Virus record (IMG/VR): IMGVR_UViG_3300044613_003659
Coordinates: 1-64,000 of that record
Length of the DNA: 64,000 bases
Direction: 5' to 3' (one strand)
DNA from: a virus
In this document: positions 56,053 through 56,365 of the stretch, in pieces
How positions within the stretch are numbered: the first letter of the stretch is position 1
Layout: the number at the start of each line of letters is the position of its first letter
Notes under the pieces: generated by a model
Databases searched by the model: none
What the model was told of the DNA's origin: nothing
What the model saw: only the letters and a program-made list of their open reading frames with translations
Translations under genes and position numbers: made by a program

Positions 56053-56365
56053 CTATTTTGGGTAACAAGGCATAGTTGCCCCGGAGATCATGCTGCTAGA
56101 GCAAAAACCTCATCGTTAGCTGCGTTTGCAGTTACTATTTTGCTCGATTTACGGTCGTCGCCTACCGTGTTGTCCATATCCTTACTTGTTGCCCTGTCGA
56201 AACCATGTCACCCCCATCAAAAGTATTCTTGATCTCCAGTTTACTTTGCGGTGGCCAATCCGCTTTCAACCTTCTCTGATCCTGCGTCCAGTTTAGAATA
56301 CTTATGGTGGAGGTGGCGGGAGTCGAACCCGCGTCCAGAACACCTTTCATTCAACTTCATACAAC
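56053..56365 (-). ncRNA. ssrA: tmRNA, circularly permuted (two-piece) gene
   Basis: On the minus strand the 3' acceptor piece comes first: GGACGCGGGTTCGACTCCC and CACCTCC-A-CCA ending at 56305. An intervening loop of about 90 bases follows, closed by AAGTATTC/GAATACTT. Then comes the mature 5' end GGGGGTG-ACATGGTTTCGAC at 56215. GGGGGTG pairs with CACCTCC, including the G3:U70 alanine identity pair. The tag ORF and a terminator follow. This order is the permuted form known from alphaproteobacteria, cyanobacteria and some betaproteobacteria. The outer ends (about 56365 and 56053) are estimates. Confidence 0.92.
56088..56129 (-). other. tmRNA tag reading frame (ANAANDEVFALAA)
   Basis: The resume codon GCA at 56127-56129 follows ATAGTAACT, which matches the resume context of other tmRNAs. 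Thirteen codons read ANAANDEVFALAA then TGA. The AND centre and the terminal ALAA (ClpXP recognition) are typical of bacterial tags. Confidence 0.92.

Follow-up and report, generated by a model that had tools for sequence, protein, structure and literature searches.

The window, a stretch of 64,000 nucleotides at positions 1 to 64,000 of IMG/VR virus record IMGVR_UViG_3300044613_003659 (107,596 bases, possibly a fragment), carries on its minus strand, at approximately 56366-56026, an entire tmRNA gene in circularly permuted form (Table 1). Searches of the whole window with Rfam 15 (cmscan) recovered it with both RF04321 (tmRNA_permuted; 149.7 bits against a threshold of 47, E 1.1e-29) and RF01850 (beta_tmRNA; 139.2 bits against a threshold of 84, E 2e-42), and the RF04321 match across the full virus record had an E-value of 4.5e-33. 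ARAGORN independently reported a tmRNA* with the tag ANAANDEVFALAA. An earlier note made from the sequence alone had proposed a circularly permuted tmRNA gene in a phage-like genome and suggested an Infernal search with two-piece tmRNA models; both models scored far above their thresholds, the layout, tag conservation, and relatives agree with them, and the contig is a virus record.

The elements on the minus strand run in the order T arm, CACCTCC, A, CCA, 89-nt segment, GGGGGTG, ACAT, GGTTTCGAC, tag, stop, 3' tail, and hairpin. All seven pairs of the acceptor stem form, including G3:U70, and A73 and CCA are present. The acceptor piece does come first, followed by a GGGGGTG 5' end, GGTTTCGAC, and a tag frame, and the acceptor halves pair with G3:U70 kept, all as the note had described. 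Its intervening loop of 90 bases measured 89, but the stem it had seen there exists as a 9-bp closing helix. The terminator it had named is present as a terminator-like hairpin, but a simple terminator scan flagged that hairpin on the plus strand only, with the minus-strand T run falling just below the rule. The tag frame has a stop and ends in the degradation-type LAA. In the RF04321 and RF01850 alignments the coding piece is aligned at its first helix; both Rfam models are built without the pseudoknots (PK1, PK2).

Table 1 Features of the permuted tmRNA locus, its surroundings, and two related records. Positions refer to the window unless another record is named.
Feature	Position	Strand	Evidence
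Acceptor piece (P2 3' strand, T arm, acceptor 3' strand)	56305..56366	-	RF04321 positions 1-63, sequence, pairing
T arm	56316-56332	-	Sequence
Acceptor 3' strand CACCTCC	56309-56315	-	Sequence, pairing
A73	56308	-	
CCA	56305-56307	-	
Intervening segment, 89 nt	56216..56304	-	Helix shuffle test, fold, relative L110
Closing helix of the segment, 9 bp	56295-56303 with 56221-56229	-	
Coding piece, P2 5' strand included, to tag end	56088..56215	-	RF04321 and RF01850 alignments
Acceptor 5' strand GGGGGTG	56209-56215	-	RF04321 and RF01850 alignments
GGTTTCGAC	56196-56204	-	RF04321 and RF01850 alignments
Tag frame ANAANDEVFALAA and stop TGA	56088..56129	-	ARAGORN; synonymous-only change versus L215
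Coding-piece 3' tail (CCGGGGC...GCCTTGTTACC) with terminator-like hairpin	56026..56087	-	RF01850 alignment end at 56026
Terminator-like hairpin with T run	56030-56051	-	RF01850 aligns its own 3' hairpin there
44-aa ORF (MLETIFWIMVGAFIGWN...), AAAGGAG just upstream, end 6 nt before the RNA match	56373..56507	-	
24 tRNA genes	32519..45533	-	ARAGORN
Weak tRNA match beyond ARAGORN's 24	33605-33692		Rfam
Free-standing peptide ORF, L213 (337-kb record)	about 996-1187	+	
Free-standing peptide ORF, L215 (320-kb record)	about 750-971 of minus strand	-	

Genome context

PHROGs matches in the record included structural, tail, and DNA polymerase proteins, a Nol-like carbamoyltransferase, a phosphate transporter subunit, GroEL, and UDP-glucose dehydrogenase, and one further protein matched phage records annotated as DnaK. 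The 24 tRNAs cover 19 amino acids, and the GroEL and the DnaK-like protein occur in the same phage record (record positions 84001-104000, L003). ARAGORN called no tRNA-Phe among the 24 tRNAs of the window, and no riboswitch family reached threshold there with Rfam.

The 44-aa ORF directly upstream is probably co-transcribed with the tmRNA, judging by its position, and the end of a similar ORF precedes the tmRNA in the relative L211. A promoter scan of the minus strand ahead of the tmRNA, as far as 57400, flagged nothing of sigma-70-like type. By eye, a promoter-like sequence (TTGACA, 17 nt, TATAAT) stands directly before the tmRNA of another relative, L213. An ORF near the window's tmRNA (57322-57948, minus strand) had a partial match to PF15515, the MvaI/BcnI restriction endonuclease family (E 2e-8, residues 21-72).

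Relatives and distribution

A relative of the window's DnaE-like polymerase (48737-50410) was encoded in 90/91 pattern-matched viral stretches, and 80 were kept. The contigs of these relatives reached 337 kb and the nearest named polymerase record, LR756508 (36.6% identity), is a 484-kb uncultured phage; the window phage therefore belongs in a group of very large phages. RF04321 had no match in LR756508. Record-wide searches took 40 of the 80 polymerase relatives, those on longer contigs. RF04321 was above cut-off in 15 of these 40 virus records and had no match in the other 25, a weak absence given that the records are fragments, and standard tmRNA (RF00023) was above cut-off in none of the 40.

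Nucleotide relatives in named phages were confined to stretches of 41-81 nt around the T arm and acceptor, and none were found there for a 3.5-kb gene. The exact 26-base T-arm and acceptor pattern occurred in at least 119 viral stretches. Among the 119 matches listed, 41 had the permuted order, 16 had an upstream GGNTTCGAC (standard order), and 63 had neither, with L110 in both of the first two counts. Phage permuted tmRNAs have also been published (PMC9004378), and the rarity that the earlier note implied is not borne out by either source.

Conservation and function

Sequence, layout, pairing, tag conservation, and presence in relatives were directly observed. Acceptor stems of relatives vary on both strands (GGGTCCG/CGGATCC, GGGCCAG/CTGGTCC, GGGCCTG/CAGGTCC, GGGGATG/CATCTCC, and GGGCCCG/CGGGTCC) and G3:U70 is constant across these variants. 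The third acceptor pair is described as a completely conserved G-U and as a determinant for alanyl-tRNA synthetase (AlaRS) in the available text of PMC3985003. Our extraction scripts required a minimum of 6 or 7 acceptor-stem pairs, and the later ones G3:U70 as well. They therefore do not test pairing, and the Rfam alignments serve as the independent witness; no broken acceptor pairs were marked in those printed for the relatives. The pairing extraction left out 7/15 family loci and 78/119 pattern loci (119 being the matches listed), and the later extraction from the family, order, and phylum samples left out L209, L212, L214, and L218 (4/15) as well as L257 and L267. Acceptor ends in L209, L212, L213, and L215 encode ACCT or ACCC, not ACCA, so their CCA would need completing.

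The window tag differs from that of L215 (320-kb record) by five synonymous and no nonsynonymous changes, from that of L368 by five synonymous changes with an identical protein, and from that of L213 by six synonymous and three nonsynonymous changes. In the alignment, the tag frame of L209 appears by eye to run far over the usual length, spanning about 30 codons between GCAAACGCAGAT and the stop, and to have a second ANDS..FALAA-like end. The constancy of G3:U70 despite two-sided stem changes, together with synonymous-only change in the tag, most likely indicates a tagging tmRNA that works with host SmpB, AlaRS, and proteases.

This conservation bears on two other explanations. The gene could be a passenger, an unused host ssrA fragment left by faulty prophage excision, since ssrA is known to serve as an integration site and fragments of it can occur in prophages (PMC9004378, available text). 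We consider this extremely unlikely: the gene is complete, the PF00589 integrase was not found in the record, the gene recurs in 15/40 related records, and its tag and acceptor are under selection. Alternatively, the RNA could be a decoy for SmpB or AlaRS, binding one of them and so blocking trans-translation in the host, a role that has been proposed for the tRNA-like fragment of mycobacteriophage DS6A. In the accessible portions of PMC4131195 and PMC11915505, a DS6A-like RNA is described as an inhibitor of tmRNA in E. coli. We found no SmpB in the 107.6-kb record, as a decoy would allow, nor in any of the 40 related records, which are probably fragments, with a search that detected it in 10/14 control genomes. 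However, the DS6A RNA has no tag, whereas the window tag is complete and under protein-level selection (five synonymous changes and no nonsynonymous ones), making a decoy very improbable. Given the absence of SmpB from the record and the 40 related records, the tmRNA would rely on the host's SmpB.

We are therefore quite confident that the locus encodes a working phage tmRNA of the circularly permuted, betaproteobacterial type. Ribosome rescue with tagging is the best functional reading, with the RNA presumably processed, charged, and active. The same RNA might instead benefit the phage through selective tagging and breakdown of host proteins, which the authors of PMC9004378 offer as an alternative in the part of that text available. 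From the sequence here, selective tagging and rescue are not distinguishable; no sequence feature singles out host proteins and the tag ends in an ordinary LAA, and we regard selective tagging as a less probable purpose, though a real contender.

Under the rescue reading, transcription, processing, charging, use of SmpB, and benefit to the phage would proceed as follows. In the precursor transcript, a helix continuing the acceptor stem would close the 89-nt segment. Host enzymes would excise the segment, RNase P cutting at GGGGGTG and a tRNA 3' enzyme at CCA; permuted precursors are probably processed by RNase P and tRNase Z (PMC3985003, available text). The two pieces would be held together via the acceptor and P2 helices, host AlaRS would read G3:U70, and host SmpB would bind. 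The complex would enter ribosomes stalled on broken mRNA, whose products would receive the tag ANAANDEVFALAA for host proteases, and ribosomes would stay available during infection while mRNA is degraded. The tmRNA may thus be part of a translation kit with approximately 25 tRNAs, DnaK, and GroEL. With the tag and acceptor identity under selection, these phages would be actively keeping ribosome rescue.

The intervening segment of the window

The segment ends form a helix that extends the acceptor stem (11/12 pairs, shuffle p 0.0005). In L110, which has the closest segment, the layout is kept and GCGG/CCGC is replaced by GTGG/CCAC. Unusually strong folding of the region 56200-56310 was not supported (z -0.93), and the closing helix alone was. 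Since most of the bacterial permuted genes tested have such helices, it is not a special property of this locus. Two open frames were rejected. One, an ORF that starts with TTG at segment position 35 and runs past the segment end, passed a loose ORF test, but AAGG abuts the TTG, and L110 reads TTA at that place, with a stop in frame after it. An open frame of 62 aa at 56350-56162 was also rejected as coding. The window's segment is best described as a non-coding hairpin, and it would be removed in the mature RNA.

Segment length differed widely among loci. The 28 Rhodocyclales-type bacterial loci, which were picked for T-arm identity, had segments of 3-4 nt, three further loci from their order (L264-L266) had 24-42 nt, and script-readable loci of the order and phylum samples had 5-115 nt. 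The longest phage segment among the matches listed measured 237 nt for the first pattern set and 482 nt for a later one.

Possible protein genes within phage segments

Phage segments often look protein-coding, and the candidates fell into two types; the window segment is neither. Type a opens with a ribosome site and ATG. The pattern CACCTCCACCA with AAGG and a nearby ATG matched at least 120 viral stretches, and 44 of the 120 listed were permuted tmRNAs, with 29 distinct segments. Among these listed matches, 23 of the 28 distinct segments of at least 60 nt had an ORF from the ribosome-site start to the segment end or beyond (mean of 2.5 and maximum of 7 in 200 shuffles), in a set preselected for AAGG and ATG and unselected for ORF length. 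Counting all 29, 24 segments passed, and 16 of those 24 ORFs stop with a TGA ending one base before the acceptor strand. All 12 type a loci sent to Rfam contained RF04321. Seven codon comparisons, of pairs picked by likeness, gave pN/pS values of 0.07 to 0.62. The 156-aa cargo of L413 matched PHROG 655, a homing endonuclease (E 6.7e-15). Coding-like segments that open with a ribosome-binding site directly after CCA include those of L396-L398, L400, L407, L413, L422, L433, L460, L486, and others. The AAGG-bearing 5' arm is complementary to the last codons (e.g., TAAGGACACT with AGTGTCTTTA), which would mask the ribosome site as long as the precursor is uncut.

Unselected viral segments of at least 60 nt among the matches listed had no type a excess (2/25 passed, shuffle mean 1.4), and four further segments of that set were type b. 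Within the window's family set, 2/6 segments passed (shuffle mean 0.15, maximum 1), one of them the window's rejected TTG frame. Segments of L204 and L210, members of the window's phage family found via the polymerase, appear protein-coding. Bacteria were hardly tested, with only one segment of at least 60 nt among 36 distinct ones, which did not pass (0/1).

Type b would encode a conserved YYTxxEWSR..PxER peptide, first seen in L010, L022, L023, and L097, and a search of viral contigs returned 72 loci (L322-L393). The peptide lies within a permuted tmRNA segment in at least 62/72 loci, a figure that is partly built in because the query alignment came from segments. Our script placed it in the segment in 56/72; 12 of the 16 others were sent to Rfam, which found RF04321 in six (L331, L332, L342, L345, L353, and L354) and not in the other six (L349, which is cut by the contig end, L351, and L358-L361). 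Over 40 distinct cores, pN/pS was 0.32, versus 1.12 and 1.13 in two shifted frames. Many type b segments have no start codon, and no stop interrupts the frame upstream as far as a GTG 70 nt ahead of the segment. That GTG sits just behind a AATAAATA-like box, which resembles the T4 late promoter as given in the available text of PMC9004378. The peptide had no credible match in Pfam, PHROGs, or named phages, and a looser form of the motif was absent from the whole record, window included. L213 and L215, two members of the window's phage family, have the peptide as an ORF of its own, located a few hundred bases upstream of their tmRNA (Table 1).

Taken jointly, these patterns suggest that the phage permuted tmRNA precursor doubles as a messenger with its discarded segment serving as a gene slot, a reading that we consider likely. 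The window would hold the non-coding form, and L204 and L210 appear to carry cargo. The slot would open right after CCA, the helix that extends the acceptor stem having the Shine-Dalgarno sequence in its 5' arm, and its end would often be the TGA within a conserved TGAT that immediately precedes the acceptor strand. Cargo would span tiny membrane-like peptides to a homing endonuclease, and a second class would encode the YYTxxEWSR..PxER peptide tied to phage tmRNA. If small genes do nest in the discarded part of the precursor, one transcript would give a ribosome-rescue RNA and a phage protein, and tmRNA cutting and cargo translation would be coupled or mutually exclusive. Routine annotation could easily miss such genes, since it would treat this stretch as an RNA gene. 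We found no report of protein genes in a tmRNA intervening sequence in the open-licence literature, in the portions of text accessible; the tmRNA database paper (PMC11915505), in its available text, mentions intervening sequences that contain a tRNA gene or a repeat, but names homing endonucleases solely in connection with group I introns. Of wider interest than the window gene itself is the segment, apparently used by related phages to house small genes.

Comparison with known systems

The window gene adds to the published phage two-piece tmRNAs and is of a kind already known. The available text of PMC9004378 describes that of Melnitz and counts 53 two-piece types among 133 unique phage tmRNAs; the tmRNA database holds 79 phage sequences (PMC11915505, available text). 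What the window contributes is a beta-type two-piece tmRNA in a family of very large phages. Matches to RF04321 like that of the window occur in Stenotrophomonas phage Bhz51, Alcaligenes phage vB_Af_QDWS595, and Acinetobacter phage BUCT628, which are other genomes with only short T-arm matches to the window; the match is annotated as ssrA in Bhz51, whereas QDWS595 and BUCT628 have no feature under it.

Methylophilales phage Melnitz likewise carries a permuted tmRNA, in a myophage and with a proposed role as a translation aid, but its ssrA groups with those of alphaproteobacteria and is accompanied by a glutamine riboswitch (PMC9004378, available text), while the beta model fits the window gene. 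Huge phages resemble the window phage in being large and in carrying tRNAs and tmRNA; the available text of PMC7162821 also reports SmpB for them, in contrast to the window record and the 40 related records, where none was found. The bacterial permuted tmRNAs of RF04321 and RF01850 share with the window the piece order, T arm, acceptor, GGTTTCGAC, tag, and tail. The window gene differs from them in being viral, in its 89-nt segment (versus the 3-4 nt of the Rhodocyclales-type loci and the 24-42 nt of L264-L266), and in a tag with an extra ANA ahead of ANDE.
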